Source: Acidobacteriota bacterium (GTDB lineage Bacteria > Acidobacteriota > Aminicenantia > UBA2199). Taken from it: a DNA stretch of 44,320 nt. A program made the position numbers and the translations under genes. Positions 15,669 through 19,793 of the stretch are shown here, piece by piece (the stretch's first letter is position 1; each line of letters opens with the position of its first letter). The stretch is from contig JAKLEC010000008.1 in assembly GCA_022711715.1 (NCBI GenBank), positions 1 to 44,320 of the forward strand, in the 5' to 3' direction. Under the pieces are notes generated by a model that saw nothing but the letters and a program-made list of their open reading frames with translations, made no database searches and was not told where the DNA came from.

Positions 15669-17432
15669 CTATTCGCCCCTGACTTCAAACATGAAGGTGT
15701 TTTCCGCAACCTCCTTCAGCGAGCGGCCGTTGTCGCCCCTGGGGAGGAGCCAGCAAACGGCCGATTTCCCCTTGAAATACTTCATTGTCCGGCGGACGGC
15801 CTTTTCCAGGTCGAAGCCGCAGTTGATCACCACATTGACCACGATCATCAGCCAGTTCACCGAGTAGTGGCTGATGTTCGATCCTCCCTTGAGGAGCTGC
15901 ACCACCGACGGCCCGGCCGTCTTCTTCTTGGCATGGCCGAAATCGGGGGCGTCGGCCTTGCCGACGGTTTTCAGCCCGGTCAGGCCAGGGAATTCCTTGC
16001 CGGCCCAGCGGGCCACGGCCGGGGAAGAGGCGATGCGGTCGTAGTCACAGCCGTAAATGTCCATGATCAGCTCGAACTGGGAAGTGGTCGGCGACGAGAA
16101 GAAGGGGAAGGAAGGGGAGAAGGCCTCGACGCTCTCGACCAGGCGGGGCATCAGCGCCTTGGAGGCGCGATTGCCGCGGCGGTCGTACTCGAAGATGCGG
16201 GTGTTCCTGCGGATCGTCTTGATGCCGGCGAAGGAGCCGCGGGGCACGTGCCAGCACAGCGCCCTGTCGGCCTTGAAGAAGCCGAGGGAGGAGCGGATGG
16301 CGTCGTTCACCGGCAGAAAGGCGCAGGTAAAGCAGTTGAGGGCGGCCATGCGCCCGTAGCGCCGATAGTTGATGGCGCTGGTCTCCACGTACTGCACCAG
16401 GGTGGCGCCGTCGCCCAGGCGCGGATCGGCGTAGATGGGCTCGCCGAAGGCCTTCATCTTGATGGCCTCGCAGGTGCGGGAGGCCCAGCGGGACACCTGC
16501 CTGGCGCCCGGGGCGCTCCCTGCGGGCAGGTTGACGTCCATGACGATCTCCTCGCCGTACTTGTCTGTTTCCAGCCGCTTCTGGAACTCGGGATAGGGGA
16601 CGGCCGAGATGCGCGGCGAGTACCAGGAGGTGCGGAAGCCGGCCTTGGCGTAAGCCTTGAGGGCGTGGCGCTCGGCATCGCGGAACACGCCCCGGCCCTT
16701 GGAGCCGGCGGTGAGGCTGAACGGCCCGCCCATGTAGCTGATGTTGGCGAACTGCACCACGCGCACGTCGTCGAAGCTGCGCTCGATCTGGCGCCAGCTG
16801 CCCGGCGCCTCAAAGGGCTGCAGGATGAGCGCCCCGGTCTGGTGGATGGCGATGCCCCCCTCGCGCAGGGCGTCGTAGACGCTCTGGTAGAAATCGGTGT
16901 TGAACAGGCTCTGGGCCGGCCCGATGGGGTCGGTGGAGTCAATGACGATCACGTCACACTGCCCCTTCAGGCGGCGGATGATCTCGGCGCCGTCGCCGAC
17001 GATCAGCTTGAAGCGCGGATCCTCGTAGACACCGGCGCACACGGCCGGCATGTGCTCGCGGCACAGGTCGCAGACCAGGCGGTCGATCTCGACCATGGTC
17101 ACCCGCTCGACCGACTTGTGGCGCAGCACCTCGCGGGCCACGCCGCAGTCGCCGCCGCCGATGATCAGCACGTGGCGCGCCGGCCGCTTCAGGGCGAACA
17201 GCGGCCAGTGGGCGATCCACTCGTGGTAGATCCCCTCGTCCTCCTCGGTCAGCTGCACGATGCCGTCCAGCACCAGCACACGGCCGAAGCGGTCCGTTTC
17301 CAGGATCATCAGCTTCTGGAAGCCGGTGTCGGTCTCGGGGACGATCACCCGCGAGACCTTGAATCCGTAGGTCGTGTCGCTGTAGAGGTCCTCGAAGAAC
17401 CAAAGCTCTTTTCCCTTCTTTATCAAGCCCAT
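15669..17432 (-). CDS. speE: Spermidine synthase fused to two tandem SpeD-like domains
   Basis: A 587-residue protein. Residues 1 to about 290 are a spermidine/aminopropyl synthase: VLIIGGGDCGVAREVL (88-103) binds decarboxylated SAM, and IDSTDPIGPAQSLF (164-177) is the catalytic signature. Residues about 293-416 and 452-584 are two copies of a SpeD (SAM decarboxylase)-like fold, each starting EIVMDV or ELIMDIYGCD and ending with FK..(R/S)A.CW..PRG. In copy 2, GGSNIS (516-521) aligns with the ESH.S cleavage site of SpeD; Ser518 and Cys538 keep the usual 20-residue spacing but the Glu is Gly. Copy 1 has VETSAI and CFTC. Decarboxylase activity is therefore uncertain. ATG 17432 is best spaced from AAGGAG; ATGs at 17441 and 17468 are alternatives. 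Confidence 0.85.
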   Translation of the reverse strand: MGLIKKGKELWFFEDLYSDTTYGFKVSRVIVPETDTGFQKLMILETDRFGRVLVLDGIVQLTEEDEGIYHEWIAHWPLFALKRPARHVLIIGGGDCGVAREVLRHKSVERVTMVEIDRLVCDLCREHMPAVCAGVYEDPRFKLIVGDGAEIIRRLKGQCDVIVIDSTDPIGPAQSLFNTDFYQSVYDALREGGIAIHQTGALILQPFEAPGSWRQIERSFDDVRVVQFANISYMGGPFSLTAGSKGRGVFRDAERHALKAYAKAGFRTSWYSPRISAVPYPEFQKRLETDKYGEEIVMDVNLPAGSAPGARQVSRWASRTCEAIKMKAFGEPIYADPRLGDGATLVQYVETSAINYRRYGRMAALNCFTCAFLPVNDAIRSSLGFFKADRALCWHVPRGSFAGIKTIRRNTRIFEYDRRGNRASKALMPRLVESVEAFSPSFPFFSSPTTSQFELIMDIYGCDYDRIASSPAVARWAGKEFPGLTGLKTVGKADAPDFGHAKKKTAGPSVVQLLKGGSNISHYSVNWLMIVVNVVINCGFDLEKAVRRTMKYFKGKSAVCWLLPRGDNGRSLKEVAENTFMFEVRGE

Positions 17433-17594: not shown

Positions 17595-19793
17595 TCAGCG
17601 CCGCTGCTTGCGTCCTACAGGAGCCCGTTTATCGGCAATCACTGAACCCGGAACCATATGGCTCTGCTCGAGGCAATGGAAACCAGGCTCGCCTGGACCA
17701 GGCGCGCCAAGGTCATCCTCCGATCCGGAAGGGTCCAGGTTCTCGCCCCCTGCAAAATGGAAATTCATCCCGCCGGGAGCGTTGCCCGAGAGATCGAGCG
17801 CGTCGGCGCCGTCAATCGGTCCGAAATCGTCCTCAATTGCGGCGCCAGATGCCATTGCCGCGCCGGGGAACGACGTCGCGCCAGCCGCGCGCATCACGCC
17901 GGCGGCGATGTCCACGGCCGTAGACGACAGCTTGGTCCAGGTACCCGCCTGCGAGTACTTGACCCACACTCCCGCCTGCGAGGGCCAGATGCCGATCACG
18001 TCGTCGCTGCCGTCTCCGTCCAGGTCTCCGGCGGTCACCTGCGTCGCCGGCGTGGCCAGCTTCACCCAGGCGCCGCCATCGGAGTCGCGATAATAAACGC
18101 CTTGGCCATCCCAAGTCGCCAAAAGATCGTCCCGGCCGTCGCCGTTCATATCGCCGGCGGCGATGTCCGTCGCCGTGGTTGACAACCTCTCCCAAGAGCC
18201 GGATTGGGAGTATTTCACCCACACCCCGCCCTGGCTCGGCCAGATGCCGATCAGATCATCCGTTCCGTCGTGGTCGATGTCACCCGCGGTGATGAGCGTA
18301 GCCGGCGAGGCCAGCTTTGTCCAGGCTCCCGAAGTGTTGTTGCGCCAGTATACGCCCTGGCCGTCCCATGTTCCCAGCAGTTCCACGCGGCCGTCGCCGT
18401 TCATGTCGCCCGTTGCGATATGCTTTGCGGTCGAGGAGAGCTTGGCCCAGGTGCCAGTCGCCGAGAACTTTACCCACACCCCGCCCTGGCCCGGCCAGAT
18501 GCCGATGATGTCGTCGATGGCATCGTCGTCGAGGCCGCCCGCAGCGATCAGAGTCGCCGGCGAGGCGAGCTTCACCCAGGCGGCCGTGACCGAGTTGCGG
18601 TAGTAGACCCCCTGCCCGTCCCAGGTGGCAACGAAGTCATCCTGGCCGGCATTGGCAAGGTGGAGTGAAAAAACCGTCCCCAGATCACTACCGCCTCCGG
18701 CAGTAGTCATGCCGTACAGGGCCGAAGGGCCAAGGACAAGCGATTCGTATGGATGGGAGCCATCGGTTGCTCCCCCGGTGAACTCGTGCAGCAAGGAATA
18801 GCCGCTGCCGTCGGTCTGTATCGTGAAGACGGTGCCGAGATCGCTGTCCCCCCCTTCGGAGGTCATGCCGTAGAGGGTCGAGCCGGAAAGGATGAGGGAA
18901 CCCTTGGGATAGGAACCATCCTCGCTGCCCCCGGTAAAAACATGCAATGCCTCGTAGCCGCTGCCGTCAGTCCCTATTTTGAAGATCGCGCCTCCGCCGC
19001 TGCTGCCGGGGCCAAAGCACGTCGTCCCGTAGAGGGTTGAGCCGGACAGGACCAGCGAGCCCTCGGGCAGGCGCCCGCCGCCGTCCTCCCAGCCGAACTC
19101 GTGGAGCAGCGTGAAACCGCTGCCGTCGGTGTTGATCTTGAATACTGTCCCTTGCATCTCGTCCCCGCCCATCCATGTCATCCCGTAGAGGGTGGAGCCG
19201 GAGAGGACGAGGTTCCCGTACGGATCTTCGCCATCGTCGTCGCCTCCGGCAAAGACATGCAGGACGGCATAGCCGGTGCCGTCGGTGTTGATCTTGAAGA
19301 CCGTGCCGTTGCTCATCCAGCCCCTGGACATGCCGTACAAGGTCGAGCCCGAGAGGATCAGCGATCCCTCCGGCCAGCCCCCGTCGGTGCCGTCGCTGAA
19401 TTCGTGCAGCGGGGTGCGCCCCGTGCCGTCGGCGTTGATCTTGAAGACCGCGCCCCGGCCGCTGCCGTACCAGCCGAAATAGGTGGTCCCATAGAGGGCC
19501 GAGCCCGAGATGACCAGCGAGCCCAGCGGCCTCGCCCCGTCGTCATCGCCCGTGAAGGTGTGAAGGCGGGTGTAGCTCGTGCCGTTGGTTTGGAGTTTGA
19601 ACACGGTTCCAGCCCCCCAGAAACCGCCCGCGGTGGTCATGCCGTAGAGGGTCGAGCCGGACAAGCACAACGAGCCTTCGGGTTGCGCGCCGTCTGGATT
19701 GCCGGTGAACGAGTGCAGCACCTCAATCTCGGCTCCTGCAGGCATAACCTGCAGGGTCAGAAAGACCACAATCAAGAACAAGTTCTTTTTCAT
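17595..19793 (-). CDS. Secreted GloVer / FG-GAP repeat protein
   Basis: A 732-residue exported protein with signal peptide MKKNLFLIVVFLTLQVMPAGA. Residues about 23-390 are seven GloVer repeats (TIGR03803 type) of about 52 residues, each with LHxFTGG..DG..P.GSL.LSGSTLYGMT...G.GTVFKI. Next come six FG-GAP/VCBS-like repeats of about 43 residues, alternating type A (ATWDGQGVYYR...WVKLA.PAT) and type B (IGIWPSQGGVWVK...W.KLSSTA), with calcium-loop-like DxDGDGxDD. Both blocks suggest beta-propellers. The last 85 or so residues are different: Gly/Pro/acidic with two echoes, FHFAGGENLDP and FHCLEQSHMVP. The role is unknown, perhaps adhesion or surface display. ATG 19793 follows GGAGGTGGGGC. Confidence 0.85.
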   Translation of the reverse strand: MKKNLFLIVVFLTLQVMPAGAEIEVLHSFTGNPDGAQPEGSLCLSGSTLYGMTTAGGFWGAGTVFKLQTNGTSYTRLHTFTGDDDGARPLGSLVISGSALYGTTYFGWYGSGRGAVFKINADGTGRTPLHEFSDGTDGGWPEGSLILSGSTLYGMSRGWMSNGTVFKINTDGTGYAVLHVFAGGDDDGEDPYGNLVLSGSTLYGMTWMGGDEMQGTVFKINTDGSGFTLLHEFGWEDGGGRLPEGSLVLSGSTLYGTTCFGPGSSGGGAIFKIGTDGSGYEALHVFTGGSEDGSYPKGSLILSGSTLYGMTSEGGDSDLGTVFTIQTDGSGYSLLHEFTGGATDGSHPYESLVLGPSALYGMTTAGGGSDLGTVFSLHLANAGQDDFVATWDGQGVYYRNSVTAAWVKLASPATLIAAGGLDDDAIDDIIGIWPGQGGVWVKFSATGTWAKLSSTAKHIATGDMNGDGRVELLGTWDGQGVYWRNNTSGAWTKLASPATLITAGDIDHDGTDDLIGIWPSQGGVWVKYSQSGSWERLSTTATDIAAGDMNGDGRDDLLATWDGQGVYYRDSDGGAWVKLATPATQVTAGDLDGDGSDDVIGIWPSQAGVWVKYSQAGTWTKLSSTAVDIAAGVMRAAGATSFPGAAMASGAAIEDDFGPIDGADALDLSGNAPGGMNFHFAGGENLDPSGSEDDLGAPGPGEPGFHCLEQSHMVPGSVIADKRAPVGRKQRR

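Follow-up and report, generated by a model that had tools for sequence, protein, structure and literature searches.

In the ordinary class-1b SpeD dimer two active sites span the interface, each drawing Ser63 and Cys83 from one chain and Ser55 and His68 from the other (T. maritima SpeD numbering, used throughout), and in eukaryotic S-adenosylmethionine decarboxylase (AdoMetDC) Ser68 and Cys82 lie in the first half of the chain and Ser229 and His243 in the second. Toms and colleagues are said to have matched T. maritima His68 to human His243 in 2004, and the origin of the two-half eukaryotic enzyme is debated. That enzyme consists of two fused bacterial halves (PMC5201418). T. maritima Ser55 is analogous to human Ser229, and T. 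maritima SpeD carrying S55A still self-processes, so Ser55 is no strict marker (PMC3975893). Bacterial proteins in which SpeD is fused to SpeDC, a pyruvoyl ornithine decarboxylase, are found in Omnitrophota, Desulfotignum and Lentisphaerota, and Li et al. 2023 (PMC10407285), who described them, proposed a route to the eukaryotic two-half AdoMetDC through degenerate SpeD fusions and gave four residues, Gln, Thr, Phe and Tyr, as diagnostic of SpeDC (we assigned their alignment columns from the text of that paper).

The minus strand of the window (the whole 44,320-nucleotide stretch of DNA analysed) carries at 15669-17432 a single uninterrupted open reading frame of 587 codons, with its ATG at 17432, its stop at 15669-15671 and an AAGGAG 10 nt upstream of the ATG. 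A sequence-only reading had seen here an aminopropyltransferase followed by two SpeD-like copies, and this fusion is real: the frame is intact, a SpeE model matches its N-terminal part and the AdoMetDC fold its tail. The end motif FK..xA.CW..PRG that had been noticed in both copies is present at residues 386-399 and 553-566 and is largely invariant in relatives. The features are as follows:

15669..17432, minus strand: whole fusion gene, 587 aa, predicted 65.7 kDa; SpeE, SpeDC-like copy 1, linker, SpeDC-like copy 2; no stops in relatives
16578..17432, minus strand: aminopropyltransferase (spermidine synthase) with N-terminal tetramerisation domain, residues 1-285 (NF002010, PF01564, PF17284)
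16182..16556, minus strand: SpeD-like copy 1, residues 293-417; pyruvoyl-site side E350-T351-S352 and C370 kept; Ser55 replaced by T344, His68 by R357
16377..16382, minus strand: predicted self-cleavage bond Thr351-Ser352; expected 39.4 kDa beta chain including SpeE and 26.3 kDa alpha chain (register from the SpeDC/SpeD alignment and the AlphaFold hairpin)
16323..16325, minus strand: Cys370, equivalent of T. maritima Cys83 (23/23 sequences)
16086..16181, minus strand: inter-copy linker, residues 418-449, fast-evolving by pN/pS
15672..16085, minus strand: SpeD-like copy 2, residues 450-587; Ser55/His68 side S509, H522 and Y523 kept; Ser63 replaced by G517, Cys83 lost
15906..15908, minus strand: Ser509, Ser55 equivalent, closing the invariant block APDFGHAKKKT(A/S)GPSV (23/23 sequences)
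15867..15869, minus strand: His522, His68 equivalent (23/23 sequences)

The sequences come from metagenome assemblies only, and an assembly or reading-frame artefact that links separate genes might on that ground be suspected; it is refuted, and virtually impossible, since the same full-length frame occurs in 11 other genomes of the window's genus (77-83% identity, with 2 more broken by contig ends), in 10 genomes of a second family of the same class, spread over five genera (tail 51-57% identical), and also in MAG records that are independent of these. Most of the records that bear a name are MAGs of Candidatus Aminicenantes or Acidobacteria, and one is labelled Chrysiogenales. We collected 23 C-termini, 51-77% identical to that of the window, and among 396 sampled genomes of the phylum no additional genus with the fusion came to light. 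Every domain is under purifying selection, with pN/pS of 0.12-0.41 in the folded domains and 0.49-0.62 in the linker (in the window's genus, 0.49 for the linker versus 0.22-0.26 for the copies).

The SpeE part scores 279.9 bits against NF002010, over the NCBIfam cut-off of 260, and 232.8 bits against TIGR00417, under the cut-off of 249.55; its Pfam matches are PF01564 (3.2e-47) and PF17284 (1.9e-10). The motifs GGGD and D165-S-T-D-P (DSTDPIGP) and residues Q198 and Y233 are invariant or nearly so among 20 full-length members, and GGGD is followed by Cys in the window's genus and by Gly in most second-family members. In five other genera of the window's family (g2, g3, g5, g8 and g9) there was no good SpeE match: either nothing turned up or just long proteins that resemble SpeE over a stretch, which suggests that spermidine synthesis has been lost in parts of the family.

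Against PF02675 (AdoMet_dc) the C-terminal half of the window protein matches in two stretches at 19.2 bits, the cut-off being 25, and one relative (L068) passes that cut-off, also in two stretches, at 30.8 bits; the isolated copies have no Pfam match, so that the family can be recognised only from the whole tail or with the help of relatives. PF01536, the eukaryotic class-2 AdoMetDC family, does not match the fusion at E up to 10, and a search of PDB sequences with the tail profile (A2) found nothing, so a fold search was needed. An AlphaFold model of residues 290-587, built on the alignment of 23 natural sequences, has pLDDT 87.3 and pTM 0.88, and its best Foldseek matches in the PDB are AdoMetDC structures or proenzymes of T. 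brucei, human (1msv), T. maritima (1tmi; TM 0.85 over 120 columns, E 2e-6) and A. aeolicus. A single half superposes well on T. maritima SpeD, and both halves together poorly on human AdoMetDC (TM ~0.5, rmsd 8.8). These model scores and matches give good support to a SpeD fold in the tail; HMM search and structure prediction of the C-terminal part, on which the sequence-only reading had staked its claim, found a SpeD fold and a SpeD-family match, the latter below the cut-off in the window protein. Phage records searched held no match, and the viral structures searched gave ordinary SpeD matches only. Residues 494-509 of copy 2 (15906-15953, minus strand) form an invariant Lys-rich block, DAPDFGHAKKKT(A/S)GPS, which ends at the Ser55 equivalent, is modelled with pLDDT partly below 50 and is possibly an active-site lid or substrate loop.

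To what kind of SpeD are the two copies related? In hhalign comparisons copy 1 matches SpeDC with E 8e-13 versus 0.13 for canonical SpeD, and copy 2 with 3e-9 versus 0.03. A tree calculated without SpeDA (arginine) sequences, and with a small set of SpeDC references from the same class, places the copies and SpeDC apart from SpeD (support 100/99) and joins the two copies to each other (92/78); this joining, and a C-terminal helix-strand extension that both copies have and SpeDC lacks, point to an internal duplication. The diagnostic Gln is present in both copies, Thr in copy 1 and Phe/Tyr in copy 2, and the fourth residue (Tyr) in neither. Sister Aminicenantia genera (L032-L040) carry an operon of canonical speD, speDC and speE, the second SpeD-like gene of which (ETSLISAHF...VYLDIFSC) bears all four diagnostic residues. 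In the window's genus the fusion lies between hutU and dnaK, and in one sister genus (L034) speD-speDC-speE lies between the same hutU and dnaK in the opposite orientation. Judged from sequence, the ancestor of both tail copies was apparently an ornithine-decarboxylating SpeD. Between hutU and the fusion the window also encodes a large repeat protein with GTVF-type repeats (17595-19793, minus strand), which looks like an insertion since hutU and the fusion are nearly adjacent in L121 and L123. Elsewhere, at L124:5072-5829 (G046), two neighbouring short genes are both weakly SpeD-like, in otherwise unrelated surroundings.

We tabulated the catalytic positions in 19 canonical SpeD, 7 SpeDC and 23 fusion tails. 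All canonical SpeD and SpeDC sequences have Ser55, Ser63, His68 and Cys83 together on one chain; in the fusion Ser63, His68 and Cys83 are not found within one repeat but are divided between the copies. Copy 1, in 23 sequences from two families, has Thr55 (22/23), Ser63, Arg68 and Cys83, and its candidate pyruvoyl Ser (in E350-T351-S352, the SpeDC-type ETS motif) and its Cys (in F368-T369-C370) are invariant (23/23). Copy 2 has Ser55, Gly63 (23/23), His68 and a variable residue at position 83. The sequence-only reading had looked for the pyruvoyl site in the other half of the tail: it credited copy 1 with VETSAI only, and so overlooked the candidate pyruvoyl Ser352 and Cys370, both present in 23/23 sequences, and it took Ser518-Cys538 for the pyruvoyl pair of copy 2, although no other aligned sequence has Cys538 and the register of Ser518 is off by one residue. 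Its proposed cleavage site, Gly517-Ser518, was thus in the wrong copy and the wrong register, Gly517 being the residue at the pyruvoyl position. The hairpin strands are 220-225/228-235 in copy 2 and 55-60/63-70 in copy 1 of the tail AlphaFold model (model numbering), and 509-514/517-524 and 344-349/352-359 in a full-length model (pLDDT 75 overall, weak in SpeE, used solely for this register); in both the turn precedes Gly517 exactly as it does Ser352. A gapped alignment of copy 2, with Ser518 at position 63 and a one-residue deletion before the His, was considered less likely because Gly517 stands at the turn in the two models, and copy 2 lacks Cys83 in any case.

The likely self-cleavage site, by alignment and model, is Thr351-Ser352, to which copy 2 would contribute Ser509 and His522. 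By homology to solved relatives (Ser55/Ser229, His68/His243 and the fused halves) we infer that the active site spans both halves and that precisely one composite site is still complete in the fusion, its parts being ordered as in the eukaryotic enzyme. Eukaryotic class-2 AdoMetDC divides its catalytic residues in this way, and the fusion apparently arrived at the arrangement independently, from a SpeDC ancestor. Given two losses per copy, the chance of perfect complementarity is 2/36, so conservation and genomic context weigh as much as the split itself. Each copy alone lacks essential residues, and both the AdoMetDC-like N-terminal domain of animal spermine synthase (PMC12803844) and the trypanosome prozyme (PMC5201418) are precedents for a catalytically dead structural or regulatory module, which here would assemble or control SpeE. 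We think this unlikely, as the full Ser, Cys, Ser, His set does not vary in the two families and is divided between the copies in the way that completes one site, and as the genomes would then be without a known putrescine enzyme; the earlier suggestion that the SpeD parts may be regulatory is accordingly retained as a weaker rival only.

The interpretation that we favour, though with some reserve, is that the protein is bifunctional, a half-and-half pyruvoyl ornithine decarboxylase that hands putrescine to its own SpeE; it draws on sequence, structural models and analogy, the residues being assigned to their sides from solved relatives and the self-cleavage, substrate and channelling being predictions. 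The C-terminal tandem would be a SpeDC that was duplicated and then degenerated asymmetrically, such that Ser352/Cys370 of copy 1 (with Thr351) and Ser509/His522 of copy 2 (with Gln512 and Tyr523) would form the composite site and the mirror site would be dead. Self-cleavage at Thr351-Ser352 would leave the pyruvoyl group on the C-terminal fragment, the site would decarboxylate ornithine to putrescine, and the attached N-terminal SpeE would receive this and move an aminopropyl group onto it. A separate gene would supply the decarboxylated AdoMet, in the second family class 1b SpeD and in the window's genus a class-2-like candidate.

Which substrate does such a site prefer? A Phe six residues before Ser55 (Phe49), which we take to be the equivalent of the adenine-stacking Phe223 of the human enzyme, is present in 19/19 canonical SpeD, 0/7 SpeDC and 0/23 of each fusion copy, and Glu62 and Pro71, both in 19/19 canonical SpeD, are absent from both copies. 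Of the SpeDC residues, Thr62 (copy 1) and Gln58 and Phe/Tyr69 (copy 2) are still present in the surviving composite site, and Tyr77 is not. Enzymes of both PLP-decarboxylase folds (Orn_Arg_deC_N and full-length OKR decarboxylase) and agmatinase/arginase were looked for and not found in the 11 genomes of the genus searched or in the second-family genomes G127, G132 and G135, which have class 1b SpeD and the fusion as their sole good SpeE. Putrescine formation is thus the missing step in these genomes, making ornithine the likeliest substrate, and on sequence grounds the composite site most likely converts ornithine to putrescine. Weak PF01276 matches (mostly 394-aa proteins, 18-20 bits) were judged to be other PLP enzymes, and four second-family genomes (G133, G134, G128 and G137) also have agmatinase or PLP decarboxylases. 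At three second-family loci (L125, L126 and L127) canonical class-1b speD lies apart from speE, near a glutamine-synthetase-like gene (L125, L126) and near potABCD-like polyamine transporter genes (L126). Action on another amino acid such as lysine or arginine, or on some other substrate, with SpeE aminopropylating the product, seems to us very unlikely: the pocket is unlike that of SpeDC (Tyr lost; invariant KKK loop 502-504) and SpeD relatives with arginine activity exist (PMC10407285), but both copies have SpeDC ancestry and the genus lacks an agmatinase to use agmatine.

The ornithine reading at first had the genus itself counted against it, since none of 16 genomes of the window's genus has a class-1b SpeD. 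A PF01536 search of these brought up a single conserved protein, ~407 aa long, in 15 of the 16, the window's own genome included, with E of 1e-4 to 1e-3, just under the cut-off:

G000:C69:10094-11314 (L147:3595-4815): class-2-like AdoMetDC candidate, weak PF01536 match and motifs; orthologues L145-L158

Its first half contains EES83H and NTC109G and its second half F284-x5-T290...H304-V-T-P (FDPPGYT...LHVTP); PF01536 is its sole Pfam match and TIGR00535 its best NCBIfam match, both far from strong. Its N half scores 27.2 against SpeD in hhalign versus a shuffled maximum of 21.2, and its C half against class 1b SpeD no better than shuffled, so that its support comes from the N-half comparison and the PF01536 match. 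It was not found in other genera of the phylum sample, and its sequence makes it a good candidate for the AdoMetDC of the window's genus, in which case the fusion would be free to be an ornithine decarboxylase and spermidine synthase. The alternative that the composite site decarboxylates S-adenosylmethionine, the chain making and using its own decarboxylated AdoMet, has in its favour the lack of class-1b SpeD in the genus, the need of SpeE for that donor and the known SpeD-SpeE fusions (PMC11107197; PMC12803844). We regard it as quite unlikely, given that the fusion lacks the Phe49 equivalent, Glu62 and Pro71, that both copies group with SpeDC, that second-family genomes have the same site together with canonical SpeD, and that the separate candidate of the genus retains the Phe. 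The sequence-only reading had allowed that one chain might make and use either decarboxylated SAM or putrescine; SpeDC affinity and the genomic gap uphold the putrescine half, and the missing Phe, the SpeDC ancestry and the separate AdoMetDC genes or candidates count against the SAM half.

The broader scenario, in which a SpeDC underwent duplication, became attached behind spermidine synthase and independently reached a one-site two-half design that works, in the window's genus, beside a divergent bacterial class-2-type AdoMetDC, is in our estimate a serious possibility that falls slightly short of an even chance. If true, one bacterial lineage would hold two separate inventions of an asymmetric two-half pyruvoyl decarboxylase, or an early branch near it, and the fusion would be the first one-chain pyruvoyl ornithine decarboxylase-spermidine synthase found in the open-access literature searched; the class-2-like candidate could bear on how the eukaryotic enzyme arose. 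In the sequences of 23 relatives two fused SpeD halves would have become fixed in a subfunctionalised state, starting from another ancestor and possibly acting on another substrate, so that a handful of point mutants would suffice to test whether fused halves drift to one common site. It would be wrong to dismiss SpeD domains as dead because they score below threshold and look "degenerate".

Among known systems, the SpeD-SpeDC fusions share with the Aminicenantes fusion two class-1b-type SpeD domains per chain and a polyamine context, and their Victivallis variant has a degenerate second domain; their N-terminal domain is an intact AdoMetDC and their SpeE a separate gene, whereas the protein described here has SpeE attached at the front of two SpeDC-like copies that are both half-degenerate. 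SpeE and a SpeD fold also share one chain in animal spermine synthase and in the AdoMetDC-aminopropyltransferase fusions of Pelagibacter and others (PMC11107197, PMC12803844), but in these a single SpeD domain precedes SpeE, the opposite order, and those that are active are AdoMetDCs. The stand-alone SpeDC proteins of the sister genera are the closest relatives found of both copies, with that of L034 in the same hutU-dnaK neighbourhood, and each is a single protein of ~130-145 aa with all catalytic residues, unlike either copy. Eukaryotic class-2 AdoMetDC (PF01536) resembles the fusion in having fused halves and, as predicted here, one site, with the pyruvoyl Ser and Cys in the N-terminal half and Ser and His in the C-terminal half; the fusion differs from it in having no PF01536 match, a SpeDC-like sequence, an attached SpeE and no adenine-stacking Phe.
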